A stretch of DNA of 39,341 nt from a virus: the IMG/VR virus record IMGVR_UViG_3300039106_000480, positions 1-39,341 of that record. The stretch is one strand, 5' to 3'. Position 1 is the stretch's first letter; every line of letters begins with the position of its first letter. The notes below the pieces were generated by a model. It saw only the letters and a program-made list of their open reading frames with translations. It was not told the origin of the DNA and did no database searches. Of the stretch, positions 7,573-27,372 are shown piece by piece. The translations under genes and the position numbers were made by a program.

Positions 7573-7593
7573 GTTTCATTCACAACAATATCT

Positions 7594-7621
7594 ATTATAC
7601 AGCATCCATCCTATTTGTCAA
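7594..7621 (-). promoter_or_regulatory. Sigma70-like promoter of the main tRNA cluster
   Basis: Minus-strand TTGACA (7616-7621), 16 bp, TATAAT (7594-7599), ending 22 bases before the first tRNA. The -35 box overlaps the last codons of tilS. No palindrome lies upstream, unlike the other promoters. Confidence 0.8.
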
Positions 7622-11968: not shown

Positions 11969-12225
11969 TTTATTACTCCAAAATTTGCCGGAAATTTTCT
12001 TTCCGAGTTTTTTATAGAAAAGCCGATTTTGCTGCCGGAAAAATTTTTAGAAAAGATTCGTTAGAGAGAATTCGAAATTGATTCGTTGGTCTAAGAGATC
12101 CCTTAAGGCCACACCCTGGAACACCGATGAGACTCTGGTGGCTGTCTTCCAGCGGTTTCCGATCGGTTGTAGTGCCTGGTCCGGCAGGTGGAGACCACCC
12201 CCACCCCACCGGTAAAAAATTCCAA
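11969..12225 (-). other. Intergenic boundary of the GC-rich island
   Basis: About 257 bases with no convincing gene. The right half (12110-12225) is GC-rich, the left half AT-rich, so the composition switch lies here. The minus strand carries a G-run cluster, GGTGGGGTGGGGGTGG, at about 12199-12214 that could form a G-quadruplex. No promoter of the module type is present. Confidence 0.5.
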
Positions 12226-12414
12226 TTAGGCCACCTGGCTCGCACGGAACTCCAACTCCTCCAGCGCAGCAACCAGGGCTACCCTACCACGCCTCTCCAG
12301 TTTGGTGCTAACTGCCATTGCCAGCGCCTTGCTATACCCTTGTGCCATCATGGCATCACGCACCATGGCACCAAGCTCCAATCGATCCAGTTTGGTTTTG
12401 AACAGGTCAACCAT
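12226..12414 (-). CDS. Small hypothetical protein
   Basis: A 62-residue helical protein (VDLFKTKLDRLELGAMVRDAMMAQGYSKALAMAVSTKLERRGRV). Its ATG forms TAATG with the stop of the alternative frame of the previous gene, which supports both. Function unknown. Confidence 0.6.
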   Translation of the reverse strand: MVDLFKTKLDRLELGAMVRDAMMAQGYSKALAMAVSTKLERRGRVALVAALEELEFRASQVA

Positions 12415-12445
12415 TAGAACTCCCCATCGAAGTAGTCATTGTCCA

Positions 12446-12688
12446 TCACATAGTCCTCGTCCACACCCCAACCAGCACTAGCCAATGCGCATCACCATCA
12501 GCCTCGAGGTCGGAGATATACTGGTCACGTTCCTCGTTCATGGCGAGTTCAGCCTCACGTTGGATCACCGAGACTGCATCCACCACCAGGTACCTAGGTA
12601 CACCAAGGCGCTCCGCAATCTCCTGCACACCAACGTCCTGGTACCACAGGTCCTCAATCTCCATCATCAGGTCAGCCATGCGACTCAT
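12446..12688 (-). CDS. HTH-like phage protein with apparent frameshift
   Basis: The frame gives 80 residues: a helical N-terminus, then VGVQEIAERLGVPRYLVVDAV, a likely helix-turn-helix. After EADGDA the frame reads HWLVLVGVWTRTM. The neighbouring frame instead reads LASAGWGVDEDY...DGEF and stops at 12414, directly overlapping the next ATG. That tail looks like the natural C-terminus, so one base appears missing or two extra near 12480-12490. TAAGGAG precedes the ATG. Confidence 0.6.
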   Translation of the reverse strand: MSRMADLMMEIEDLWYQDVGVQEIAERLGVPRYLVVDAVSVIQREAELAMNEERDQYISDLEADGDAHWLVLVGVWTRTM

Positions 12689-12698
12689 TAGGTACTCC

Positions 12699-12782
12699 TT
12701 AAACCATCAAAAAGGCAAGGGTTGCAAAGATGATGCCGAAGAGGGCACCACCGAGGAATTCCATCACTTTGTTTTTCATCAT
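12699..12782 (-). CDS. Tiny one-TM peptide, probably leaderless
   Basis: A 27-residue peptide: MMKNKVMEF then a hydrophobic helix (LGGALFGIIFATLAFLMV). The first ATG is exactly seven bases after the -10 box, so transcription should begin at or next to it and no ribosome site is available. It is followed by a strong TAAGGAG for the HTH-like gene. Confidence 0.5.
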   Translation of the reverse strand: MMKNKVMEFLGGALFGIIFATLAFLMV

Positions 12783-12788
12783 GGAACC

Positions 12789-12838
12789 ATTATAGCATGA
12801 TTCAGGTAAAGGTCAAGACCTGTTGCGTTTAGGCAACA
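12789..12838 (-). promoter_or_regulatory. Palindrome-promoter module
   Basis: Minus-strand TTGACC (12811-12816), 16 bp, TATAAT (12789-12794). Palindrome TGTTGC-N6-GCAACA at 12821-12838, containing the stop codon of the upstream gene. Gap 4-5 bp. Confidence 0.8.
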
Positions 12839-13071
12839 ACCGCCTCATACCCCATCTTTTTGGCTTTGGCTTTACCGAATTCGACAATCGCGTCTGCCGC
12901 AGGACCCAGAGCCTTGATATCCTTAGCAACCGTCTTGGCGGGAACACCGTAAACCCAGCTGATCCAGTCACGACCATCGGCATCGCGGCCGTAGGTGCCA
13001 TCCCATACGAAACTCGCTTCGGTCAGAGCCACGCGCCAGATTGCTGCTTCATAGGACTTGGTAGGTTTCAT
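12829..13071 (-). CDS. Hypothetical protein in GC-rich island
   Basis: 80 residues from the ATG at 13071, chosen for AAGGAG six bases upstream; an in-frame ATGATG lies at the predicted transcript start. Sequence MKPTKSYEAAIWRVALTEASFVW..GRDADGRDWISWVYGVP, then a helical tail. The stop codon lies in the loop of the next palindrome. Unassigned. Confidence 0.65.
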   Translation of the reverse strand: MKPTKSYEAAIWRVALTEASFVWDGTYGRDADGRDWISWVYGVPAKTVAKDIKALGPAADAIVEFGKAKAKKMGYEAVVA

Positions 13072-13098
13072 TGTCATCTCCTTGTTCATCATGGTTCT

Positions 13099-13147
13099 AT
13101 TATAACTGGATCCAGGTAAAGGTCAAGTGGTGTTGTTTTTATGCAAC
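13099..13147 (-). promoter_or_regulatory. Palindrome-promoter module
   Basis: Minus-strand TTGACC (13121-13126), 16 bp, TATAAT (13099-13104). Imperfect palindrome 13132-13147, gap 5 bp, enclosing the stop of 13139-13345. Confidence 0.8.
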
Positions 13148-13345
13148 CAGACTGTACCGAACTCGGGCCAGTTTGAAGGCATCGATGAACCAATGTTCAC
13201 CAGTCTCGGTATCTCGGACCAGAACCTCATCGCGGGTGGCTTCTGATTCCACATCCACCACAACCAGCGATCCATTGGCACCACTTGCGAGCACATAGAC
13301 CTGACCGACTTCGATTCCGTATTTTTGGTATGCTTCCATGATCAT
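13139..13345 (-). CDS. Conserved phage protein, small beta fold
   Basis: 68 residues from ATG 13345 (TGATG overlap with the upstream gene). Pattern VGQVYVLASGANGSLVVVDVESEATRDEVLVRDTETGEHWFIDAFKLARVRY is a recurrent small phage protein resembling a KOW/SH3-like barrel. Function unknown. Confidence 0.65.
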   Translation of the reverse strand: MIMEAYQKYGIEVGQVYVLASGANGSLVVVDVESEATRDEVLVRDTETGEHWFIDAFKLARVRYSLVA

Positions 13346-13608
13346 CACTTGAAAACGATAAGAGCCAGAAGGAGGGTATTGGCCAGGAACCCGATGGCGT
13401 TGGATGCTACCCCAAGGCGGTCATTGATACCAATGGCACGGAGCAGGAAGAGGAACAAACCAGCCCAGACCAACAGCACCATACTGATAGGCGGCATGGT
13501 CACCTCGTAACCTAGTGCGGCCTTGATCGTGGTAGGTAGGGTAGCAGAGTGGATCAGAACCATTCCAATCCAACCAGCAGTCTCGCTAGGGTTGATCCAG
13601 ATCCTCAT
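13345..13608 (-). CDS. Membrane protein, three hydrophobic segments
   Basis: 87 residues with hydrophobic stretches near 10-25, 40-58 and 68-86. TAATG start overlap with the upstream gene. Not recognised; a small inner-membrane protein is the safest call. Confidence 0.6.
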   Translation of the reverse strand: MRIWINPSETAGWIGMVLIHSATLPTTIKAALGYEVTMPPISMVLLVWAGLFLFLLRAIGINDRLGVASNAIGFLANTLLLALIVFK

Positions 13609-13868
13609 TAGGCGCTCCAGTACGCTTCGCTATCGGGACGGCAGCACCAGGGGGTATCAGCAGGGATCACCACAGGCTCACCAGTCATCAGGCTTTTCAC
13701 CGTGATATACTCATCGGCCTTCTTGGCGACCAGGTCACGGTAGATACCGATATCGCCCATCGTGTAACCAGCACCGAGTTTGGCGACCAGGTTGATAGCC
13801 GACTTGGCGTAGGTGTAGGTCTTTTCGACCCTCAGAGTCTCGGTATGGTAGACCACGTATCCAGCCAT
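13608..13868 (-). CDS. Conserved phage protein (SLMTGEPV..ETYWSA type)
   Basis: 86 residues from ATG 13868, with AAGGA nine bases upstream. The C-terminal pattern VKSLMTGEPVVIPADTPWCCRPDSEAYWSA is common to small proteins of many phages. A YxVYxTET N-terminus is also shared. Function unknown. Confidence 0.7.
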   Translation of the reverse strand: MAGYVVYHTETLRVEKTYTYAKSAINLVAKLGAGYTMGDIGIYRDLVAKKADEYITVKSLMTGEPVVIPADTPWCCRPDSEAYWSA

Positions 13869-13901
13869 GGGTTTCTTTCCTTGTTCGTTCATCATGGAAC
13901 C

Positions 13902-13960
13902 ATTATAGCAGGTTCCAGGTAAAGGTCAACTACCGTAGGCACTGTTGTTTTTAAGCAACA
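13902..13960 (-). promoter_or_regulatory. Palindrome-promoter module, long-gap class
   Basis: Minus-strand TTGACC (13924-13929), 16 bp, TATAAT (13902-13907). Palindrome TGTTG..CAACA 13943-13960, 14 bp upstream of the -35 box. The gap contains TACCGTAGG. Confidence 0.8.
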
Positions 13961-14325
13961 ACCTTGGATCGGATGTAACCAAAGGGAAGACCAAGGTTGT
14001 ATTCCAGGAACTCCATATCGCCGTTAGTCTCAAAGGCCTCGTCCAACCAGCGGATCGCCATAGCACGGTTGCGGGCACCGAGTTCCCTCAGACCATAGAT
14101 CCGTTCCTCGAAGTCCTTGATCGCTTGCGCTTCCTGTTGTTCCCGCTGGTCTTCCTGCTCACCGATACGGGCACCAAGGCGCTGGAACTCAGCCTCGAAG
14201 TCCGCCTCAGTCCAATCCGAAACGTCATTGGTCGGGCGGAACCCATAGGCGTCCTTGAACATATCAGAGTAGGTCACGCCGTATTGTTCCAGCGTGGTCA
14301 TCTGATCCCAGGGCTTGAAGGGCAT
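13951..14325 (-). CDS. Conserved phage protein (YSDMFKDAYGFRP family)
   Basis: 124 residues from ATG 14325, with GGAGA upstream. The N-terminal YSDMFKDAYGFRP motif, a charged coiled-coil centre (residues about 45-75) and the C-terminal RWLDEAFETNGDMEFLEYNLGLPFGYI match a widespread phage family of unknown function. The stop lies inside the next palindrome. Confidence 0.75.
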   Translation of the reverse strand: MPFKPWDQMTTLEQYGVTYSDMFKDAYGFRPTNDVSDWTEADFEAEFQRLGARIGEQEDQREQQEAQAIKDFEERIYGLRELGARNRAMAIRWLDEAFETNGDMEFLEYNLGLPFGYIRSKVVA

Positions 14326-14352
14326 TCTGTTCTCCGTTGTCATCATGGAACC

Positions 14353-14400
14353 ATTATAGCAGGTTCCAGGTAGAGGTCAATACCGTTGTTTTAAAACAAC
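14353..14400 (-). promoter_or_regulatory. Palindrome-promoter module with perfect palindrome
   Basis: Minus-strand TTGACC (14375-14380), 16 bp, TATAAT (14353-14358). Perfect palindrome GTTGTTTTAAAACAAC at 14385-14400, gap 4 bp. Confidence 0.85.
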
Positions 14401-14401
14401 A

Positions 14402-14746
14402 TCAGCATCCACGCTGGTATCCAATGATGTTCCCATAGGGGTCATAGACTGGAATGCCCAGGCAGACTGGATGGCCAAACAGGTTGTAGACTGTACCAGA
14501 TTGGTCCATGTAATTCTGAGGTGCTGCCGGTGCACAGGAAGGGCAATGAACCACCTGTCCGGTGTATGGGCTGACCTGAGGGTAACCATTGTATCCATAG
14601 GGGTGTGGATGAACCACTCGTGGCATCAAAGCACCAGCGACAACGGCACCAACCACGACCGCACCAACCGTGCGTCCAAACGATCCATGGGCATGGCTAT
14701 TGAAGGTCATACCAGCGATTGCACAGGCTACAATAAATTTTTTCAT
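14402..14746 (-). CDS. Secreted Gly/Tyr-rich protein
   Basis: 114 residues from the ATG at 14746 (MKKFIVACAIAGMTFNSHAHG), a Sec signal likely cleaved after AHA. A second hydrophobic stretch (VGAVVVGAVVAGALM) follows. The rest is rich in Gly/Tyr/Pro with four Cys (two in CPSC, VCLG, and the C-terminus). Possibly periplasmic or outer-membrane associated. Family not recognised. Confidence 0.6.
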   Translation of the reverse strand: MKKFIVACAIAGMTFNSHAHGSFGRTVGAVVVGAVVAGALMPRVVHPHPYGYNGYPQVSPYTGQVVHCPSCAPAAPQNYMDQSGTVYNLFGHPVCLGIPVYDPYGNIIGYQRGC

Positions 14747-14750
14747 GGTC

Positions 14751-14930
14751 TTAGAAGGAAGGTTCCTGAACTGGAATTCCATACTCATCCTCGTCCGGAA
14801 TCACCTCATTGGCGGCTAGCATATCCCGAACATCATCTTGGCTCATCCACTTGGCGGCCATGATTAGAGCCTCACGGGCATCCAGGATCCCATCGTCAAC
14901 CAGTTCGATTAGGTAGTCACGGTAGTCCAT
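14751..14930 (-). CDS. Small conserved phage protein
   Basis: 59 residues from ATG 14930 (AGAGGA upstream). MDYRDYLIELVDDGILDAREALIMAAKWMSQDDVRDMLAANE is a small helical family found in many phages. TGATG overlap with the upstream gene; function unknown. Confidence 0.65.
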   Translation of the reverse strand: MDYRDYLIELVDDGILDAREALIMAAKWMSQDDVRDMLAANEVIPDEDEYGIPVQEPSF

Positions 14931-15091
14931 CAGTATTCCTCTCGGTAGCATTCGTCATACTCCGCACGATTCAAGGCTTCCAGCCAGTTCTCGTATGCAA
15001 TCATTTCGGAGTAGGTCATCAGTTGGTCATAGTCTTCCAACTCCAGATCAATCAGGATGCAATCGGCCAGAGTGTATCGAAGTTCGGTCAT
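14930..15091 (-). CDS. Small acidic hypothetical protein
   Basis: 53 residues, Glu/Asp/Tyr-rich (LADCILIDLELEDYDQLMTYSEMIAYENWLEAL). AAGGAG lies six bases before the ATG. First gene of a three-gene unit behind the module at 15.1 kb. Confidence 0.6.
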   Translation of the reverse strand: MTELRYTLADCILIDLELEDYDQLMTYSEMIAYENWLEALNRAEYDECYREEY

Positions 15092-15115
15092 TCCAGGCTC
15101 CTTCATCATGGTTGT

Positions 15116-15161
15116 ATTATAACTGGATTGGTAGAATTGTCAATTGTTGTTTTTATACAAC
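15116..15161 (-). promoter_or_regulatory. Palindrome-promoter module
   Basis: Minus-strand TTGACA (15138-15143), 16 bp, TATAAT (15116-15121). Palindrome GTTGT-N6-ACAAC at 15146-15161, gap 2 bp. A 21-codon GTG frame ends with its TAA in this palindrome. Confidence 0.8.
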
Positions 15162-15229
15162 GAAGGGGCACCAGATAACTTGCGGTTGTTTAAGAGTAGG
15201 CGGTATTGGTACCGCCACTCCCCCGTATC

Positions 15230-15505
15230 TTAGGCCGCCATTGCGACGACCGTAACCTTACTCGGGCGCTTCGCCACCCGCTTGGCCTTGACGCCAACAG
15301 GACCAGTCAGTTTCGCCAGCCGAGCCTTAGCCCGTTGGATCGCGGCATCCTGTTTGGCCTGTCGCTTGGCTTCACGGGCTTCCTTAGCATTGATTCGCTC
15401 CTGAGCCACAACGGCCTTGAGTTCCTTCACCTGCTGCCGAAGGGCCTTGATCATCGCCAGTTTCGATTGCAGAAGCTCCACATTGGCCGATTTTGCTTTC
15501 GCCAT
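15230..15505 (-). CDS. Basic coiled-coil protein
   Basis: 91 residues, very rich in Ala/Lys/Arg. A continuous heptad-like helix covers residues 8-70 (LLQSKLAMIKALRQQVKELK), followed by a basic tail. It may bind nucleic acid. AAGGAGTAGTAAAA precedes the ATG. Confidence 0.6.
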   Translation of the reverse strand: MAKAKSANVELLQSKLAMIKALRQQVKELKAVVAQERINAKEAREAKRQAKQDAAIQRAKARLAKLTGPVGVKAKRVAKRPSKVTVVAMAA

Positions 15506-15517
15506 TTTTACTACTCC

Positions 15518-15727
15518 TTACACCAGATTTTTGTTGATGAGGAAGAGAAATTCCTGCTCCAGGGCTTTCCTCTTGGCCTTGGGCAGTTGGTCGATCACAC
15601 CTTGGAACATAGACTGAAGGTACCCCAGAGTGTAGGCGCTGGCGTCCCTACTGTCCCACCCTTGGGATTCTCGCTTGGCGCGGATCGCATTGACCAGGAC
15701 TTCCAGGGTGTTCGGTTCGTATCGCAT
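15518..15727 (-). CDS. Hypothetical phage protein
   Basis: 69 residues from ATG 15727 with AAGGAA upstream. Central DSRDASAYTLGYLQSMFQGVI resembles other small phage proteins of unknown role. It has its own promoter module. Confidence 0.6.
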   Translation of the reverse strand: MRYEPNTLEVLVNAIRAKRESQGWDSRDASAYTLGYLQSMFQGVIDQLPKAKRKALEQEFLFLINKNLV

Positions 15728-15760
15728 TGTGGTGTTTCCTTGTTCGTTCATCATGGTGCT

Positions 15761-15807
15761 ATTATGACAGGACACCAGCATCCTGTCAAGTGTCGTTTTT
15801 ACGCAAC
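15761..15807 (-). promoter_or_regulatory. Palindrome-promoter module, degenerate palindrome
   Basis: Minus-strand TTGACA (15784-15789), 17 bp, CATAAT (15761-15766). A weakened palindrome (GTTGCG..CGAC) at 15792-15807, gap 2 bp, holds the upstream stop. Confidence 0.7.
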
Positions 15808-16023
15808 ATCCAGTTGGACCTGCAAACCTTCCCAGATACCAGCAATTCCTTTCGTGGTACCGATGCTACAGTATTCCATGGAGTCCAGCGCCTTCTGTAC
15901 AGCCGCATTGGTCTGGGTAAAATCACCAATTCCATTGCGGATCGTCTTCGCGGTGCTGTAGAAGCAGGCCTGTCCAATGATGACGCGGAACCGCTTGTTC
16001 GGGGGAAATCGCTTGATCGTCAT
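15799..16023 (-). CDS. Hypothetical phage protein
   Basis: 74 residues; AGGAACAAAGC precedes the ATG. The segment DFTQTNAAVQKALDSMEYCSIGTTKGIAGIWEGLQVQLDVA recurs in small phage proteins. Function unknown. Confidence 0.65.
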   Translation of the reverse strand: MTIKRFPPNKRFRVIIGQACFYSTAKTIRNGIGDFTQTNAAVQKALDSMEYCSIGTTKGIAGIWEGLQVQLDVA

Positions 16024-16055
16024 GCTTTGTTCCTCGTTTCGTTCAGTATGGAGTA

Positions 16056-16102
16056 ATTATAGCAGGATCTAGACGGTTGTCAAGATGTTGTTTTAAAACA
16101 AC
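16056..16102 (-). promoter_or_regulatory. Palindrome-promoter module with perfect palindrome
   Basis: Minus-strand TTGACA (16078-16083), 16 bp, TATAAT (16056-16061). GTTGTTTTAAAACAAC at 16087-16102, gap 3 bp. Confidence 0.85.
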
Positions 16103-16105
16103 ACC

Positions 16106-16258
16106 TCAGTAAGGCTTGACGTCGCCGATGTGGGCACCATCGCACCAGATAGAGCATTCGAATCCAGTGGCACGGGCGAAGTTCACGGCTTCCTCGAGTT
16201 CGGTGAATGCGCCTTTGTTCATCTGGAAATTAACAAGGTAGACGGTGTAGAGGTGCAT
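16106..16258 (-). CDS. Small hypothetical protein
   Basis: 50 residues from ATG 16258 with AAAGGGA upstream; an in-frame ATGATGAACGAA lies at the transcript start. MHLYTVYLVNFQMNKGAFTELEEAVNFARATGFECSIWCDG suggests a small alpha/beta fold. Confidence 0.55.
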   Translation of the reverse strand: MHLYTVYLVNFQMNKGAFTELEEAVNFARATGFECSIWCDGAHIGDVKPY

Positions 16259-16291
16259 CGCGGTCCCTTTCGTTTCGTTCATCATGGTTCT

Positions 16292-16340
16292 ATTATACAT
16301 GGATCCAGATGGTTGTCAACCCTTGTTGTTTTAAAACAAC
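16292..16340 (-). promoter_or_regulatory. Palindrome-promoter module with perfect palindrome
   Basis: Minus-strand TTGACA (16314-16319), 16 bp, TATAAT (16292-16297). GTTGTTTTAAAACAAC at 16325-16340, gap 5 bp. Confidence 0.85.
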
Positions 16341-16343
16341 AGG

Positions 16344-16670
16344 TCAGAAGTGTCCGTACACAATCGTATCGTTGGTCGATCCGACGTATTCACCACGATC
16401 GCACAAGTAGTCAATCACGCGGTCTTTGATTTCACCATCGTCGGTGCAATCGCTGATATCGATATCGAAATCGAATGCAATGGACTCAGGCTCGTCCTCA
16501 GCGAATTCACAGCAAAGACCGATAACGTCGAATTCAATGCTGGTCCCAGTATCCGCTTCAAGTTCCTCGAGGTAATTGAACAAAACCAGCAGTCCCTCAT
16601 CAGAAAAATTCTCAGGACGGATCGCCAGAAAGTCCGCTTTGAACTCAGAAAAACCAATCGTCTTTTGCAT
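16344..16670 (-). CDS. Acidic conserved phage protein
   Basis: 108 residues from ATG 16670 (GGAG upstream). Strongly acidic, with roughly a quarter Asp/Glu and few Lys/Arg. Family pattern: NFSDEGLLVLFNYLEELEADTGTSIEFDVIGLCCEFAE, acidic middle, then VIDYL and a C-terminal DTIVYGHF. Recurs in unrelated phages; the acidity recalls DNA-mimic anti-restriction proteins, but that is conjecture. Confidence 0.7.
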   Translation of the reverse strand: MQKTIGFSEFKADFLAIRPENFSDEGLLVLFNYLEELEADTGTSIEFDVIGLCCEFAEDEPESIAFDFDIDISDCTDDGEIKDRVIDYLCDRGEYVGSTNDTIVYGHF

Positions 16671-16702
16671 CACTTGCTCCGTTGTTCGTTCATCGTGAAA
16701 AC

Positions 16703-16760
16703 ATTATAGCACAATCACCGGACTTGTCAAGCACTATCGTTTCTGTTGTTTTTTTACAAC
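16703..16760 (-). promoter_or_regulatory. Palindrome-promoter module, long-gap class
   Basis: Minus-strand TTGACA (16725-16730), 16 bp, TATAAT (16703-16708). Palindrome GTTGT-N6-ACAAC at 16745-16760, gap 14 bp. Confidence 0.85.
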
Positions 16761-16813
16761 TGTCTCTAAAATACAACACCGTAGGTACCCTAAATACGCT
16801 CTTTTCTTCTAAT

Positions 16814-17020
16814 TCATTTACTACCAACTAGATTCTTCAATGCTTTTATCAGTAACTTCGCTTCATTTCTAGTAAATACCATACTAGTCAGATATAGATT
16901 ATCTTCGAAATAGTTTATTTTAATATGATCTTCGGGTGCTTCGGGATCAGGCATAATCTCAAAATGATGTTCTAATCCCGTAGTTGCGATATTAAATTGC
17001 GTTTCAAGTCTAGGCATCAT
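16814..17020 (-). CDS. Small hypothetical protein
   Basis: 68 residues: MPRLETQFNIATTGLEHHFEIMPDPEAPEDHIKINYFEDNLYLTSMVFTRNEAKLLIKAL. Beta-rich then helical. Sits after 17021-17329 in the same transcript. Unknown. Confidence 0.6.
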   Translation of the reverse strand: MMPRLETQFNIATTGLEHHFEIMPDPEAPEDHIKINYFEDNLYLTSMVFTRNEAKLLIKALKNLVGSK

Positions 17021-17329
17021 TTAATTGCTCGCAATAATAGCATTAATCATATCGAATGCACGTTTATCAAACCCACCAACGTGCCAGTTTGTAATTTTCG
17101 TTTTGGGTGTACCTTTAGCACCATTATAATTCTTGCCGTCTTTATAATTATAGATTGTTGCAATAGTGCCGTCATTGAATTTAACGACCCATTCTGCATC
17201 AGTCTTATACTCATCGCCTTTCATGGGAGTACCAAATAGACTTTTCAGTTTGCTATAATTGACGGTGATATATCCCTGCAGGTGTGATCCGCTAACGCCC
17301 TTGTAATTCTTTTGAGTCTGATATTTCAT
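17021..17329 (-). CDS. Conserved phage protein (DAEW..DGTIATIYNYKDG family)
   Basis: 102 residues from ATG 17329 with AAAGGAAA upstream. The pattern LQGYITVNYSKLKSLFGTP, TDAEWVVKFNDGTIATIYNYKDGKNY and ITNWHVGGFDKRAF is shared by proteins in many phages and plasmids. Function unknown. Confidence 0.72.
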   Translation of the reverse strand: MKYQTQKNYKGVSGSHLQGYITVNYSKLKSLFGTPMKGDEYKTDAEWVVKFNDGTIATIYNYKDGKNYNGAKGTPKTKITNWHVGGFDKRAFDMINAIIASN

Positions 17330-17359
17330 CGTGTTTCCTTTCTGATTCATCATGAAAGT

Positions 17360-17417
17360 ATTATAGCAGGACTGAGGTAATTGTCAACTGATACCTGCGG
17401 TGTTGTTTTTATGCAAC
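17360..17417 (-). promoter_or_regulatory. Palindrome-promoter module, long-gap class
   Basis: Minus-strand TTGACA (17382-17387), 16 bp, TATAAT (17360-17365). Palindrome 17402-17417, gap 14 bp; the stop of the upstream gene is in the palindrome. Confidence 0.82.
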
Positions 17418-17714
17418 ACTTACAAGTTTCATCAGGTTTTTGATAACATTTTTTTTCTGATACACTTGTGATTTTTCAAGGCGATTAATCATTTCACTAG
17501 TGCGATAGGAGACCGAGAATTCGATTGCATACAGTTTAAGATATGACGACCGACCCTTGGGATCATAGCCCAAGTAACTGATTTTATATTCACCGATGTT
17601 GGGAATCAGGCGCTTGAACAATTCAAGATATTCGATCGGAATATACGCCCAGTTGGTTTTGCTAGTACGATACGATTCAAAATCTTTCAGAGTCACTTTC
17701 GGCAGAATTTTCAT
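17409..17714 (-). CDS. Hypothetical protein
   Basis: 101 residues, moderately basic, mixed alpha/beta (TNWAYIPIEYLELFKRLIPNIGEYKISYLGYDPKGRSSYLKLYAIEFSVS). Own promoter. No family recognised. Confidence 0.6.
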   Translation of the reverse strand: MKILPKVTLKDFESYRTSKTNWAYIPIEYLELFKRLIPNIGEYKISYLGYDPKGRSSYLKLYAIEFSVSYRTSEMINRLEKSQVYQKKNVIKNLMKLVSVA

Positions 17715-17745
17715 TTCCTAGTTGGTTTCGGGCACTACAGAATCA

Positions 17746-17803
17746 ATTATAGCAGAACGGGTGAACTTGTCAATCGGTGAATTTTTTGTTGTTTTTATAC
17801 AAC
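17746..17803 (-). promoter_or_regulatory. Palindrome-promoter module, long-gap class
   Basis: Minus-strand TTGACA (17768-17773), 16 bp, TATAAT (17746-17751). Palindrome GTTGT-N6-ACAAC at 17788-17803, gap 14 bp. Confidence 0.85.
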
Positions 17804-18028
17804 AGTCAGTTCCAGAGTCGGATCAGTCATCATAATGCGAACTTCACTCATCATTTCAGAAATTTCCTCTTCATCCCAACCCCATTTTCGAATTTGATTT
17901 TCGATCAATTCAAGTTTCGCTTCGGTTGTTCGAAGATTAATCACCGCATATGACAAGTCGGTCGGAGTTTGAAACGGAAATTCAACGAAATGCCCGTCAC
18001 GGGTAGTAAATGCTAGGTTCATACTCAT
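17795..18028 (-). CDS. Small hypothetical protein
   Basis: 77 residues: NLAFTTRDGHFVEFPFQTPTDLSYAVINLRTTEAKLELIENQIRKWGWDEEEISEMM, with a helical second half. Second gene of a unit with 18030-18311. Stop inside the palindrome. Confidence 0.6.
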   Translation of the reverse strand: MSMNLAFTTRDGHFVEFPFQTPTDLSYAVINLRTTEAKLELIENQIRKWGWDEEEISEMMSEVRIMMTDPTLELTVV

Positions 18029-18029
18029 T

Positions 18030-18311
18030 TTATTTTACCTGATATCGGTCATAGGATCGAATTACACTTCGCTTATCAGTATTCTTCCGAACCCATTCAA
18101 TGACAATACCCTGGGCTGCAAGTTTTGTAGTAAATTTTAGTGCGTCAGAATCTTCTTCCAAATAGACTGTATCGCCTTTCTGATATGAATATGGGCTGAT
18201 ATGTTCGGCGATCCCGTATTCAGTTAGCAGTTTACGCTTCACCGCAACCCAGCCATGAGCAGGATCAGTATACAGTTTGAGTTTAATCCGAAGGTCTTTA
18301 TACACTTTCAT
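18030..18311 (-). CDS. Hypothetical protein
   Basis: 93 residues from ATG 18311; a leaderless start at 18329 (ATGATGAACGAAACG) would add six. MKVYKDLRIKLKLYTDPAHGWVAVKRKLLTEYGIAEHISPYSYQKGDTVYLEEDSDALKFTTKL has a compact alpha/beta look. Unassigned. Confidence 0.6.
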   Translation of the reverse strand: MKVYKDLRIKLKLYTDPAHGWVAVKRKLLTEYGIAEHISPYSYQKGDTVYLEEDSDALKFTTKLAAQGIVIEWVRKNTDKRSVIRSYDRYQVK

Positions 18312-18335
18312 TCTCGTTTCGTTCATCATAGGTAC

Positions 18336-18398
18336 ATTATACCGCAGAATGGTGAACTTGTCAAGCGGTACTGGTGTGGTGTTGTTTTTATACAACAC
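18336..18398 (-). promoter_or_regulatory. Palindrome-promoter module, long-gap class
   Basis: Minus-strand TTGACA (18359-18364), 17 bp, TATAAT (18336-18341). Palindrome GTGTTG-N8-CAACAC at 18379-18398; gap 14 bp to the extended stem, 16 bp to its core. Confidence 0.85.
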
Positions 18399-18642
18399 TT
18401 GCGAAATGTTCTTTTGTTTTGTCGATTGCTTTATAGAATGATGGATTATTGGATTCATCAATACCATTGTGCCACATATTTGTAATCATTTCATCGATTG
18501 TTTCTTTTACAACTAAATCAACAAGACCATTCAATTCTTCAGGGTAAAATTCGTAATACTCCTCTAGGGTGCTATCACCATAAGGACCGTATCGCTCTTT
18601 TAGCAGATGATCTTTCACATATTGTTTAATTCGTTCGTTCAT
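18388..18642 (-). CDS. MNERI-type small protein
   Basis: 84 residues from ATG 18642. It starts MNERIKQYVKDHLL, the N-terminus shared with the tandem paralogues at 23-24 kb, then diverges (YGDSTLEEYYEFYPEELNGLVDLVVKETIDEMI). Function unknown. Confidence 0.6.
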   Translation of the reverse strand: MNERIKQYVKDHLLKERYGPYGDSTLEEYYEFYPEELNGLVDLVVKETIDEMITNMWHNGIDESNNPSFYKAIDKTKEHFASVV

Positions 18643-18669
18643 TGTTTTTTCCGTTGTCATCATGGTGCT

Positions 18670-18728
18670 ATTATGACAGACCTTTCGGCACCTGTCAAGT
18701 ACCTACGGTAATGTTGTTTTTATACAAC
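18670..18728 (-). promoter_or_regulatory. Palindrome-promoter module, long-gap class
   Basis: Minus-strand TTGACA (18693-18698), 17 bp, CATAAT (18670-18675). Palindrome 18713-18728, gap 14 bp containing ACCTACGGTA. Confidence 0.82.
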
Positions 18729-19457
18729 AGCCAGATACTTCACAAAACCCGTGGTGTCTTTCTTTGCTTTGCCCTTGGCGTACAGCCCGACGATTACATT
18801 CGCAGGATCAAGAAATCGCAAATCAGAATCATCACCGTTAAATACAGCCCGACCAAGATAATCATCGGGCATTTTCTGGGTTTTCTTGAGTCCGAAAACG
18901 ACTGCAACATTATAGCCCTGGTCGATTGCTTTCTTAACGTCATTGTCATTACCATCTGCGGCCGAGAATGTCAGAGAATAGTTGGCGATATTCGATACTT
19001 TACGACCCAGGATTTTAGTGTAATCGTAAAATTGAACGTTCGAAAATGCTTCGAAGATATTGTTATATTCAACACCGTCAACCGTCACGGGATACTTTTC
19101 CCATGCAAGGTCAGAGGTGCCGTTCAGGCGAAATACGGGCGTGAGATTCAATCGTGCAGATTGTTTGATCGCAAGTTTAATATCCTTGACTAGCAGAGCC
19201 ATGAACTCGGTGCGATTTTCAAAGAAAAGGCGCGTCTTACGCTTGCGGGCTTCTTGAATGACGTTGGTCGATTCACCGCGCTTGAACATACCACCACGGC
19301 CCGCAGTATTCAAACAAGCCGCAGTACAGCCCGCGGTGCGTTTCGGGCACGTTTCATAGCCGCTGACGTTAGCAGGCGCCAGATGCAGAATGTAGGTGTT
19401 AAATCCGTGATCCAGACCCTTGAGAACCTTGGGATTGCCAGTCGAAAGTAGTTTCAT
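18720..19457 (-). CDS. GP88-like phage protein
   Basis: 245 residues. The N-terminal block LHLAPANVSGYETCPKRTAGCTAACLNTAGRGGMF, followed by ARKRKTRLFFENRTEFMALL, identifies the family named after mycobacteriophage gene 88, found in phages and plasmids. The three Cys (CX6CX3C) could bind metal. Biochemical role unknown. Transcribed alone from its own module; an AAA+ ATPase lies upstream. Confidence 0.8.
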   Translation of the reverse strand: MKLLSTGNPKVLKGLDHGFNTYILHLAPANVSGYETCPKRTAGCTAACLNTAGRGGMFKRGESTNVIQEARKRKTRLFFENRTEFMALLVKDIKLAIKQSARLNLTPVFRLNGTSDLAWEKYPVTVDGVEYNNIFEAFSNVQFYDYTKILGRKVSNIANYSLTFSAADGNDNDVKKAIDQGYNVAVVFGLKKTQKMPDDYLGRAVFNGDDSDLRFLDPANVIVGLYAKGKAKKDTTGFVKYLAVV

Positions 19458-19483
19458 TACAGCCCTCGTTCAGTACAGAATCA

Positions 19484-19531
19484 ATTATAGCAGGCCTGGC
19501 AAACTTGTCAATAGCGTTGTTTTTTTACAAC
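19484..19531 (-). promoter_or_regulatory. Palindrome-promoter module
   Basis: Minus-strand TTGACA (19506-19511), 16 bp, TATAAT (19484-19489). Palindrome GTTGT-N6-ACAAC at 19516-19531, gap 4 bp, with the stop of the upstream membrane gene inside. Confidence 0.85.
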
Positions 19532-19731
19532 GGTTTGTTTTGATCGCTCAGAGTCCGCACCGAACCAGCGATATTAAATAACAGCCCAATACCCATCGCT
19601 TGCAGAAAATCAATCTCCCGTGCTACGGTTATAGCAGGCACTAGAGCATTATTCCAGAGAAATTGAATGATAATCGCATAAACAAGTAATGCGACAGATA
19701 ATAGCAGCAGAGAGAATAATAGTTTCTTCAT
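19525..19731 (-). CDS. Small membrane protein
   Basis: 68 residues. Signal-like first helix (KKLLFSLLLLSVALLVYAIIIQFLW) and a second weak helix near 45-58. The WNNALVPA..AMGIGLLF arrangement recurs in short phage membrane proteins. Starts at the stop of the ATPase gene. Confidence 0.6.
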   Translation of the reverse strand: MKKLLFSLLLLSVALLVYAIIIQFLWNNALVPAITVAREIDFLQAMGIGLLFNIAGSVRTLSDQNKPL

Positions 19732-20630
19732 TACGCCACCAGAGTGTATTTGGCGAGGTCTTTCCAGTCAGTATTTGCAGACCGAATCTTAGTCACCGAG
19801 ATAAGAGTCCGCAAAGAAATCTCGCGGGCATCGTCTTTAATCTCACGAATAAGAGCCAGCGCATCTTTGACCGCTACTTTCTCATACTCGGGCATGAAGT
19901 CAGGCTCCATCGCAATCGTCTCCATGCGTTCGATTTTCTGATCGGTAGTCATGCTCAGGTCGATCATCATAGACCGCGAGCGGATCGCTTGATCGATTTG
20001 GTTCTGATTAAGGTTCGAAATGAAAATGACACGACCCGTGAAAACAAAAGATTTGGGCAGGTCATCGTCGCGCAAATCAGCATTCCAGGAGATAATACGC
20101 TTGCCGTAAGAGTCCAGCGCACCCTTCAGTAGATTAAGAGCCACAGGATCGCGCAGAATCGAATCGCAATCGTCAAAGATAATCACACCACCATTGTTTT
20201 CGAATAGTGTACGATACAGACCCTTTGCGGTCGAAAAGCCCTTGACCATAATGTAGGTCTTTGACCGACGCACGATCATGCCTTCTTTAAGAGCACCGAT
20301 ATCCGAGATATCAGAATAGCCCGCTTTGTCAAGAGTTTTAGTGACGGTGAATGTTTTGCCAAGACCACCCTCGCCAGTAATGATCGCTGACGCTTGCACG
20401 TTATTAGCAACCATCGAGACCAGTTTAGTGACAAAATCGAATCGTTCATTGATACCGAACGACGGAGTAGTGCGCGGCTTTTGTTGCGTCACTTCATCAC
20501 CGAACGTGACGGCATAGCCAAGATTAGCAGCCTGCGCCGCAATATACGCTTTGCTAATAGACTTAATCGTTTTGCCCTGGAGTTCCAGAGTCCACTTGCC
20601 CGTGCGCTTATCAAGATTTGCTTTCAGCAT
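19731..20630 (-). CDS. AAA+ ATPase
   Basis: 299 residues from ATG 20630 (AAGGA upstream); the longer frame needs a TTG start. Walker A GEGGLGKT at about 86-93, Walker B VIIFDDCD near 150, sensor-like FISNLN near 210 and an arginine pair RSRSMMIDL near 225. The N-terminal 60 residues look like a separate small domain. Related phage ATPases remodel nucleoprotein complexes; the client is unknown. Co-transcribed with a small membrane protein. Confidence 0.8.
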   Translation of the reverse strand: MLKANLDKRTGKWTLELQGKTIKSISKAYIAAQAANLGYAVTFGDEVTQQKPRTTPSFGINERFDFVTKLVSMVANNVQASAIITGEGGLGKTFTVTKTLDKAGYSDISDIGALKEGMIVRRSKTYIMVKGFSTAKGLYRTLFENNGGVIIFDDCDSILRDPVALNLLKGALDSYGKRIISWNADLRDDDLPKSFVFTGRVIFISNLNQNQIDQAIRSRSMMIDLSMTTDQKIERMETIAMEPDFMPEYEKVAVKDALALIREIKDDAREISLRTLISVTKIRSANTDWKDLAKYTLVA

Positions 20631-20665
20631 CGCCAATTCCTTGTTTGTCTCAGTCAACAGAACAT

Positions 20666-20715
20666 ATTATGACAGGTACCGAAGCACCTGTCAAGTAGTG
20701 TTGTTTTTTTACGAC
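20666..20715 (-). promoter_or_regulatory. Palindrome-promoter module for the AAA+ gene
   Basis: Minus-strand TTGACA (20689-20694), 17 bp, CATAAT (20666-20671). Slightly degenerate palindrome (GTCG..CAAC) at 20700-20715, gap 5 bp. Confidence 0.75.
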
Positions 20716-20882
20716 AGTTTGCGGCCGCAGTATTCACCGACGAATTCAAAGTCCGCCAGACCACCGAATCGTTGCATCAGCAGGCGGGTTGCTTGACCCT
20801 TGCTCTCGGCTTCGATCATGCAAACTTCAGAGTTGGTCTTTGACCAGATGATTTTGAAAACAAAATCGCGCAGCATCACCAT
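20709..20882 (-). CDS. Small hypothetical protein
   Basis: 57 residues, with AGGAG six bases upstream of the ATG. MVMLRDFVFKIIWSKTNSEVCMIEAESKGQATRLLMQRFGG, then FEFVGEYCGRKLS: a beta-alpha-beta small protein. Stop inside the palindrome. Confidence 0.6.
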   Translation of the reverse strand: MVMLRDFVFKIIWSKTNSEVCMIEAESKGQATRLLMQRFGGLADFEFVGEYCGRKLS

Positions 20883-20910
20883 TCGAATCTCCTATCAATC
20901 AACAGGTTCT

Positions 20911-20956
20911 ATTGTACATGGACTACCGAGGTTGTCAAGTGTTGTTTTTTTACAAC
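20911..20956 (-). promoter_or_regulatory. Palindrome-promoter module
   Basis: Minus-strand TTGACA (20933-20938), 16 bp, TACAAT (20911-20916). Palindrome GTTGT-N6-ACAAC at 20941-20956, gap 2 bp. Confidence 0.8.
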
Positions 20957-21060
20957 AGGCTGAAGCAACCGACCCACTCACGGTAATTTTGCTGAGACTC
21001 AATCCTGAGCCATTCGATTCTGCCGTTGACGGATCGCTCGACGCAAATAGTGCCACGCAT
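20950..21060 (-). CDS. Tiny hypothetical protein
   Basis: 36 residues, from an ATG with AGAGG upstream: MRGTICVERSVNGRIEWLRIESQQNYREWVGCFSLL. The predicted transcript starts about 30 bases upstream. Its stop lies in the next palindrome, as for neighbouring genes, which supports coding. Confidence 0.5.
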   Translation of the reverse strand: MRGTICVERSVNGRIEWLRIESQQNYREWVGCFSLL

Positions 21061-21096
21061 TGTGATAGCCTCTTGGTTTCGTTCAGTACAGGTAGC

Positions 21097-21160
21097 ATTA
21101 TTGCACGAATTGGTAGGGTTGTCAAGTGTTGTAAAAAAACAACTGTTGTTTTTAAACAAC
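21097..21160 (-). promoter_or_regulatory. Promoter with two tandem palindromes
   Basis: Minus-strand TTGACA (21120-21125), 17 bp, AATAAT (21097-21102). Two palindromes in tandem, with A-rich and T-rich loops on the same strand: 21128-21143 (gap 2 bp) and 21145-21160, one base apart. The only doubled site seen. Confidence 0.75.
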
Positions 21161-21162
21161 AG

Positions 21163-21477
21163 TTACCACTTCTCGCCATGGTCGAAGTTATCAAGAAAAT
21201 CATAATCGTCAATATCAACGATCCGAGGTATATCAATCGCAAAATCTTCGGGTGATAATGGTGAGCCTCGTATTAGCATCTGAGTCTGGGCAATACCTTC
21301 GGGTGTTTGTTTATAATCATATGACACCTTACGCATATTGTCACGCACATTCTCAGAAACGTCACGATTTGTATTAGAGCAGGCTTTACTACAGAAAAGA
21401 CCACGTTTCCTGTGCAGTCTATCGCATACAGGACAATTCTTTGCTTTGTAGCGATCAACAGGTCTTTTGTTTTTCAT
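21163..21477 (-). CDS. Zinc-finger phage protein
   Basis: 104 residues. N-terminal CPVCDRLHRKRGLFCSKAC (C15, C18, C29, C33) is a treble-clef-like zinc site. It is followed by a basic helix and YKQTPEGIAQTQMLIRGSPLSPEDFAID, a layout I recognise in T4-like phages. Probably a nucleic-acid-binding accessory protein. Directly follows the lipoprotein esterase gene. Confidence 0.7.
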   Translation of the reverse strand: MKNKRPVDRYKAKNCPVCDRLHRKRGLFCSKACSNTNRDVSENVRDNMRKVSYDYKQTPEGIAQTQMLIRGSPLSPEDFAIDIPRIVDIDDYDFLDNFDHGEKW

Positions 21478-22206
21478 TTATTTCAGGTAGTTATTCCAGA
21501 GAATTGAAGCATCTGCTACACCTGCTGAATTAAAATGACATTCATCATATCGTTTTATTTTTGGCACCATATCTGTATTTGGTCCAGTTTGAGTCGATTG
21601 AAATAATCCTACTTCATTATCATATTCGCTCAACAAACCACAGACCGTTGATCGTGCAGTTAAAATAATTACATCGCGGCTAATACCACTAATCAATCTT
21701 TGCCAATAATCAGAATATTCTTGAAACGTCATTTTATCTCGGGCATCACTTTCGCCTTGCTGCCAGAGAAAATAATTAACACCATATGCTGTGTTCAAAT
21801 CATTATATGCTTTTGTAAATTCTGCGTTATCAATAAATCGTTTAATCGAAGCACCGTTGATAGCATAAACAGAGAAAATAACATTTTTACCAGTTCGCTC
21901 TGAATAATCTACCATCACTTGCTGAAATAAATTAAAATAATTCGTTTCGTTAGGTGATGGGTGCAACGGTACATTCATTAATGGTGATTTTGCTGGATAG
22001 CATTTTGAATCAACATATTGAAAAACTTTTGGTGATACTTTTTCGTTTGAATTTTGTGCGACGTTGGCTGCATTCGATTGTCCAGCGATAAAGAATACAA
22101 CTGTATTTTCTTTTGGTGGGCAGACACTTTTTGCTGATGAACTTTCTCCGCCACCGCCACCACAACCATATAGAATCGCTGTAAATAAAATAATTAATTT
22201 ACGCAT
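21478..22206 (-). CDS. Lipoprotein SGNH/sialate-O-acetylesterase-like enzyme
   Basis: 242 residues from ATG 22206 (GGAAG upstream). A signal with lipobox LYGC at 12-15 and a Gly/Ser-rich linker (CGGGGGESSS) predict a lipid-anchored periplasmic protein. Catalytic blocks: FIAGQSNA (Ser), YAINGASI, FLWQQGESDA and DECHFNSAG (Asp-x-x-His dyad), as in the carbohydrate acetylesterase (CE6/SASA-like) group. It may remove acetyl groups from surface or cell-wall sugars and so alter receptors; this role is inferred. Confidence 0.8.
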   Translation of the reverse strand: MRKLIILFTAILYGCGGGGGESSSAKSVCPPKENTVVFFIAGQSNAANVAQNSNEKVSPKVFQYVDSKCYPAKSPLMNVPLHPSPNETNYFNLFQQVMVDYSERTGKNVIFSVYAINGASIKRFIDNAEFTKAYNDLNTAYGVNYFLWQQGESDARDKMTFQEYSDYWQRLISGISRDVIILTARSTVCGLLSEYDNEVGLFQSTQTGPNTDMVPKIKRYDECHFNSAGVADASILWNNYLK

Positions 22207-26995: not shown

Positions 26996-27316
26996 TTAAT
27001 TGTTTACAGTCCATTCAATGTCACGAATCTTTGTTTTTTGAATCGCAGACATACAGATAGGACAAGGTTTTGCAAGAAGAGGATTACCTTTTTTATTGTA
27101 ACGAAATACAGAAATTTTATAGGCACGATCAAGATTACGGCATTTTACGATAGCAGCAATTTCCGCATGAAGTGTAATCTTATGCGGTTCGCCAGCCTGC
27201 TCGGCATATCGTGCTTGCATCGGGTGTGTTTTGATATAGGAATTCTTACCTATGCTCAGGACACGACCACGACGGTCATAGATTATTGCCGTAATGTTTT
27301 GTTTTGTGGTACTCAT
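26996..27316 (-). CDS. Cytidine/dCMP deaminase-like protein
   Basis: 106 residues from ATG 27316; a longer frame would begin inside the -10 box. Zinc motifs TLHAEIAAI (His and catalytic Glu) near residue 50 and PCPICMSAI near 86 define the deaminase fold. Shorter than T4 dCMP deaminase and without its second zinc domain. It may act on a free nucleotide or an RNA base. Predicted transcript start is 7-8 bases past the -10 box, at the ATG, so it may be leaderless. Confidence 0.8.
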   Translation of the reverse strand: MSTTKQNITAIIYDRRGRVLSIGKNSYIKTHPMQARYAEQAGEPHKITLHAEIAAIVKCRNLDRAYKISVFRYNKKGNPLLAKPCPICMSAIQKTKIRDIEWTVNN

Positions 27317-27323
27317 AGCAAAC

Positions 27324-27372
27324 ATTATATCAAAGACTCATGGTATTGTCAATAGTGTTGTTTTTATACAAC
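27324..27372 (-). promoter_or_regulatory. Palindrome-promoter module for deaminase-like gene
   Basis: Minus-strand TTGACA (27347-27352), 17 bp, TATAAT (27324-27329). Palindrome GTTGT-N6-ACAAC at 27357-27372, gap 4 bp, enclosing the stop of the upstream gene. Confidence 0.85.

Follow-up and report, generated by a model that had tools for sequence, protein, structure and literature searches.

Predicted 5'-terminal AUG codons lie preferentially in frame with downstream Shine-Dalgarno-led starts in repeated promoter cassettes of an uncultured T4-like phage

The transcript of lambda cI is an example of a leaderless messenger RNA (mRNA), and promoter-early-stem-loop (PeSL) cassettes were reportedly described in phages RB49 and phi1 by Arbiol in 2010 and Comeau in 2014. 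Leaderless mRNAs are found in mycobacteria (PMC4633059) and in Deinococcus-Thermus (PMC12340547). In Escherichia coli, several mRNAs led by a Shine-Dalgarno (SD) site (ptrB, iscR, rcnR, and pnp) also carry a 5'-terminal AUG, or 5'-uAUG (Beck, Fleming, Janssen 2016; PMC4965119); 70S ribosomes bind these codons and translate from them at 0.1-100% of the level of the downstream gene, whose expression the codons can raise or lower (PMC4965119). PeSL cassettes of the T4-type phages RB49 and phi1 appear in a passage of a later paper that cites them (PMC4503421). Here we describe 17 promoter modules, ten of them with an ATG at the predicted transcription start (+1), in the IMG/VR record IMGVR_UViG_3300039106_000480, a linear virus record of 39,341 bases analysed over its whole length (hereafter the window), which is a fragment of an uncultured T4-like phage that infects bacteria.

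The modules lie on the minus strand (12782-21090), and each has a strong sigma-70-type promoter, in most cases accompanied by a stem-loop and a ribosome site. Their promoters (12789-21125), one before each small gene, scored 11-12 of 12 consensus bases, and a consensus scan of 12500-21500 gave 28 promoter-like sites vs. 15.0 ± 3.9 in shuffled sequences. The arrangement TTGAC[A/C]-16/17-[T/C]ATAAT-N6-ATG occurred at 10 minus-strand sites (12782, 13092, 13895, 14346, 15109, 15754, 16285, 17353, 18329, and 18663). In all ten the A of the ATG was the seventh base past the -10 box, that is, the predicted +1, and all ten read ATGATG, which agrees with the original prediction of an ATG seven bases after the -10 box in many modules. 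The other seven modules lacked it (16049 ATACTG, 16696 ACGATG, 17739 TGTAGTG, 19477 and 21090 TGTACTG, 20659 and 20904 TGTTGA), and since several of these promoters still kept the bases that follow (ATACTGAACGAA, ACGATGAACGAA, TGTACTGAACGAA), the +1 ATG was not a constant element of the promoter.

The window modules resembled PeSLs in having a strong sigma-70-type early promoter beside a stem-loop, with a predicted terminator role in the window, repeated among small genes. The RB49 early promoters displayed the same architecture, with initial sequences (ATACCGAAACGAA, ATCAACGAAACGGGAGG, ACCGAAACGAA, and CAACGAAACG) similar to those of the window, but the 17 RB49 promoters counted by eye began with AUA, AUC or AUU, never with AUG (0/17), and their spacers occupied all three frames. 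In leaderless mRNAs the AUG lies at the transcript 5' end or within about 5 nt of it, with the -10 box 6-7 nt upstream, and the window AUG would do likewise, as predicted from its spacing to the -10 box; unlike classic leaderless genes, which have one start, most modules retained a second, SD-led, in-frame start. The coexistence of a 5'-terminal AUG and an SD-led start would be shared with the E. coli 5'-uAUG mRNAs, given that here the transcript ends are predicted. The E. coli study deliberately chose out-of-frame cases and did not report phage genes of this kind (PMC4965119), whereas the window has its 5' AUG within a recurring phage cassette, with a preference for in-frame placement. Use of 70S ribosomes at the window AUG would follow this precedent.

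Second starts were found 18-27 nt downstream in nine of the ten +1-ATG modules, mostly SD-led, and all nine were in frame (P = 5e-5 against a chance of 1/3). All nine lie on the minus strand: 13069-13126 (+1 ATG 13092, SD start 13071, 21 nt), 13866-13929 (13895, 13868, 27 nt), 14323-14380 (14346, 14325, 21 nt), 15089-15143 (15109, 15091, 18 nt), 15725-15789 (15754, 15727, 27 nt), 16256-16319 (16285, 16258, 27 nt), 17327-17387 (17353, 17329, 24 nt), 18309-18364 (18329, second ATG 18311, 18 nt), and 18640-18698 (18663, second ATG 18642, 21 nt). The ribosome site was weak at 18642 and without a clear SD at 18311, so that the layout of a 5'-terminal ATG, at a predicted transcript end, plus a downstream start comprised nine modules, seven of them with a clear SD. 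Spacers thus differed by whole codons (18, 18, 21, 21, 21, 24, 27, 27, and 27 nt). The in-frame ATGs previously noticed at 13071, 13868, 14325, 15727, 16258, and 17329 were all present, and those at 15091, 18311, and 18642 were added to them; the frame relation of every second start had not been drawn before. The predicted +1 left no space for an SD upstream of the first ATG.

Among the seven siblings without a +1 ATG, spacers were 20, 22, 25, 26, 26, 29, and 30 nt and only one start was in frame (1/7 vs. 9/9, Fisher P = 9e-4). Out of frame were, also on the minus strand, 16021-16083 (ATACTGAACGAA, SD start 16023, 26 nt), 16668-16730 (ACGATG, ACGATGAACGAA, SD start 16670, 26 nt), 17712-17773 (TGTAGTG, start 17714, 25 nt), 19455-19511 (TGTACTGAACGAG, start 19457, 20 nt), 20628-20694 (TGTTGACTGAG, SD start 20630, 29 nt), and 20880-20938 (TGTTGATTGATAGGAG, start 20882, 22 nt); the in-frame case, 21058-21125 (TGTACTGAACGAA, start 21060, 30 nt), precedes a 36-residue open reading frame (ORF) whose gene call is uncertain. 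From the comparison with RB49, the window modules are best described as PeSL-like cassettes whose predicted transcripts begin with AUG if the gene is in frame and hardly ever otherwise.

The relation was then scored in independent viral contigs, fetched with patterns that fixed the promoter, the +1 triplet and mostly the SD, never the frame, together with relatives of one window protein. The window was excluded, near-duplicates were removed, and a promoter was counted wherever an SD-led ORF of 40 codons or more came after it; whole records picked for an in-frame anchor (L407-L444) were omitted from the array, triplet and strict-SD statistics. The main test was restricted to contigs in which three or more of these promoters occurred, a restriction adopted after weaker unrestricted results, and the in-frame excess was significant at each array threshold from one through five promoters. 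Under this restriction 50 of 80 +1 ATGs shared the frame of the SD-led gene (binomial P = 1.4e-7), with label permutation within contigs giving P of about 4-6e-4. Control +1 triplets remained at about chance, 30-36% (ATA 46/136, ATC 12/40, ATT 7/21, TTA 28/78, ACA 19/53). An ATG ahead of +1, hence untranscribed, was unbiased (16/56), as was an ATG from +6 on (19/47), and ATGs at +2 to +5 leaned in frame (23/43), a lean that may come from second codons of ATGATG and near-terminal AUGs. With a strict SD definition, 37 of 57 +1 ATGs were in frame vs. 145/441 (P = 7e-6), and the ATG spacers clustered at 21, 24, and 27 nt. Spacers were free of stops in 46 of 50 in-frame +1-AUG cases and in 118 of 182 in-frame non-AUG cases. 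Single contigs with other initial sequences presented the complete pattern (4/4 in L011, 6/6 in L155, and 3/3 in L218). The effect was diluted in a broader matched scan with no array requirement (47/99 vs. 63/189, P = 0.02), and the all-offset comparison with all promoters pooled reached only P = 0.07, the signal becoming clear with multi-promoter contigs and matched +1 triplets. A subset with an ANAYNC discriminator (17/22 vs. 33/91) was defined post hoc and is not relied on.

The bias was confined to AUG and to the predicted 5' end of the transcript or positions very close to it, as would be expected if ribosomes initiate there. From the sequence patterns, we consider it probable that ribosomes do use the 5'-terminal AUG as a leaderless start, and that for the most part such a codon is tolerated only if it shares the frame of the SD start. 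The modules would be T4-type early cassettes, each combining a small gene with a stem-loop, a strong sigma-70-type promoter and a short transcript start. The A of ATGATG is the predicted first transcribed base in ten modules, whose mRNA would then have no leader ahead of that AUG; nine of the ten would also carry an internal start, usually with an SD site, 18-27 nt further. Ribosomes (70S, by precedent) may initiate at the 5' AUG often enough for an out-of-frame AUG to disturb the gene, since ribosomes from it would cross the true SD site and start codon while reading another frame. Because of such interference, evolution would retain the 5' AUG mainly in frame and otherwise swap it to AUA, ACG or UGU. 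An in-frame pair would yield two co-terminal products, 6-9 residues apart, and the tandem AUG may buffer start-site slippage of 1-3 nt, as the second AUG keeps the frame. What was observed are positions, frame relations and controls; from these we infer where transcription starts, that translation initiates at the 5' AUG and why selection would act on it.

Several points weigh against this interpretation. Outside the window 30 of the 80 +1 ATGs were out of frame, so the rule is not absolute, and in one contig (L136) the downstream SD start was in frame 2 at all three +1-ATG promoters. Nor is the 5' AUG a clear substitute for the SD, because the SDs of the ATG modules are as strong as those of the others; a weaker SD in +1-ATG modules had been considered and was discarded, there being no difference (median -5.4 vs. 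-5.8 kcal/mol, P = 0.71). The window modules may not be fully independent, owing to shared ancestry via recombination, and the +1 position is predicted from the spacing to the -10 box (N6 in the modules, N7 at 27316). A nucleotide search of phage records returned no close relative of the window region in which orthologous sites could be compared.

Cassette copying is the alternative that survives best, although we regard it as unlikely: the initial sequence, spacer and start would be recombined together by PeSL-like shuffling, the frame would be inherited, and the 5' AUG would have no translational role. The repeated initial sequence ATGATGAACGAA, the stem-loops adjoining the promoters and the comparable shared sequence in RB49 are consistent with it. 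Nevertheless, the spacers vary in length (18-27 nt) and sequence yet remain multiples of three, siblings sharing the TGAACGAA core without the ATG are mostly out of frame, and the ATG-specific bias is seen again in unrelated phages whose initial sequences differ (ATGATCACCAAGGAG, ATGAACACAAAGGAG, and ATGGAAACA). The fixed spacing over unrelated genes to which the original prediction pointed is real, but it is partly a property of the repeated promoter cassette, in which the +1 ATG is not universal, since the modules resemble RB49-type cassettes whose transcripts also start with AU.

A purely transcriptional role, in which AU(G) at +1/+2 aids start-site choice, promoter escape or 5' stability and starts no translation, appears slightly less likely again. 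Among 493 promoters unselected by the search patterns, A then T at +1/+2 was enriched whatever the third base (ATA 94, ATG 51, ATC 20, and ATT 18), and RB49 transcripts start with AUA or AUC, both of which fit such a role. It predicts no frame preference, however, and among the tested +1 triplets only AUG shows one; the earlier suggestion of an AUG-rich 5' end stabilising the mRNA, which likewise predicts frame independence, runs contrary to the data for the same reason. Least probable of all is that the +1 ATG is the true start in every module and the internal SD and ATG are incidental: the modules at 12782 and 18329 and the deaminase gene at 27316 do lack a usable SD, but most modules have SDs matching other phage genes in strength, an in-frame internal SD plus ATG arises within a gene by chance in just 0.8% of cases, the homologues of the 17329 gene have the internal Met as their first residue, and siblings without a +1 ATG use the SD start.

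Returning to the 5'-terminal AUG as a probable initiator, the modules would provide evolutionary evidence from environmental phages that an AUG at the 5' end is read by ribosomes despite a good SD start a few codons downstream. In the open-access literature we found no account of phages with frame-locked 5'-terminal AUGs, and natural modules of this kind make the role of the codon testable. More tentatively, the early genes of many environmental phages could be dual-initiation units, combining a 5' AUG used by 70S ribosomes on the nascent transcript with an SD start in the same frame for 30S subunits; if so, early proteins would be made under whichever initiation route the infected cell favours. 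For annotation, many phage early genes carry two plausible, frame-matched starts.

Homologues bear on whether the extension itself is useful. In other phages, three proteins homologous to the 17329 product align with it from the SD-led Met onward, without the extension, and the homologues begin at the internal Met or follow promoters without a +1 ATG. These observations argue against a conserved role of the extension and in favour of a tolerated by-product or of a 5' AUG that recruits ribosomes. The proposed selection for leaderless AUG starts is partly supported: it gains from the frame bias (9/9 in the window and 50/80 elsewhere, with AUG at the predicted +1 only), but selection for a useful extra isoform was not supported.

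Some genes appear to depend on the first ATG alone. The module at 12699-12816 (minus strand; promoter 12789-12816, +1 ATGATG 12782) encodes a 27-residue peptide (12699-12782, MMKNKVMEFLGGALFGIIFATLAFLMV) with no SD and, as originally stated, no second start, being the tenth +1-ATG module; from its sequence it is a candidate leaderless small membrane peptide with a single-span look, and no homologue support was found for it. The deaminase gene (26996-27316, minus strand; 26996-27352 with its promoter), considered similar, also lacks an SD, but its ATG at 27316 is at +2, the eighth base after the -10 box, and not at +1. Alignment with its homologues begins at residue 4-5, and a truly leaderless gene is the most likely reading. 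In the fetched contigs, many of them fetched by +1-ATG patterns, 162 further promoters had no SD-led gene but a +1 ATG that opened an ORF 40 or more codons long; among the 493 promoters unselected by the search patterns, ATG occurred 51 times at this offset vs. about 10 at neighbouring offsets. Several promoters in L434 (from G020) and L025 were followed by a +1 ATG with no SD (TATAATGTACATATGAAAGCG, TATAATGTATGCATGAGTACT), and these genes are apparently purely leaderless; the same apparently applies to a recurrent gene (L093, L125, L132, and L143) starting with ATGATGAGAAAGAAACG 6 nt directly after TATAAT.

Other arrangements were observed as well. In L136 a stop precedes the gene start at two of the three promoters, possibly an upstream ORF (uORF)-type organisation that is the reverse of a frame lock; uORFs in frame 2 ending in ATGA overlaps were not counted as coupling, because such overlaps are expected when A follows the start codon. 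In module 16696 the ATG at +4 starts a frame of 7 codons that ends in a TGA overlapping the gene ATG (TGATG), and translational coupling may possibly take the place of a frame lock there. About 30 promoters with SD-led genes lie in a single 36-kb phage contig (L418, from G008) with initial sequences TTACACACACTAAGGAG, ATAGACAGCAAC, and ATCGCAACAAGGAG; it has a single +1 ATG, which is in frame.

A perfect stem of at least 6 pairs, lying no more than 60 nt before the -35 box, accompanied 16 of 24 promoters (expected, 13.5%), with the consensus GTTG..CAAC. Most of these promoters are preceded by one such stem-loop on the minus strand, for example at 13132-13147, and further ones at 12840, 13962, 14400, 15161, 16102, 16340, 16760, 17417, 17803, 18396, 18728, 19531, 20956, and 21160. 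No special 5' RNA fold was detected in the modules (z from +0.3 to +1.3). Several module ORFs stop within, or a few bases ahead of, the next stem-loop; these ends, the matches of the 19457 and 20630 genes to PHROG families and the alignments of the 17329 homologues support the reading frames used. In several modules (12822-20960, minus strand) the stop codon is placed within the loop (GTTGC/T-N-TAAAAACAAC), and consequently the proteins of quite different genes share ...VA or ...VV ends, the cassette providing the last codons; speculatively, the VA ends look like weak degradation tags.

The tRNA-cluster promoter (7573-7621, minus strand; promoter 7587) belongs to the same family, with a variant initial sequence (TGTTGTGAATGAAACG) and no +1 ATG. 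A Pfam search of the small module proteins gave zero family matches. Almost all long ORFs of the window are on the minus strand, and it encodes 11 tRNAs and genes of DNA metabolism (RNR, PhoH, thymidylate synthase, and primase), the primase being closest, among isolates, to that of the T4-like Methylophilales phage Melnitz (41% identity). The region 12000-16000 has 52% G+C vs. about 35% across most of the record, which suggests that the module block was recently acquired.

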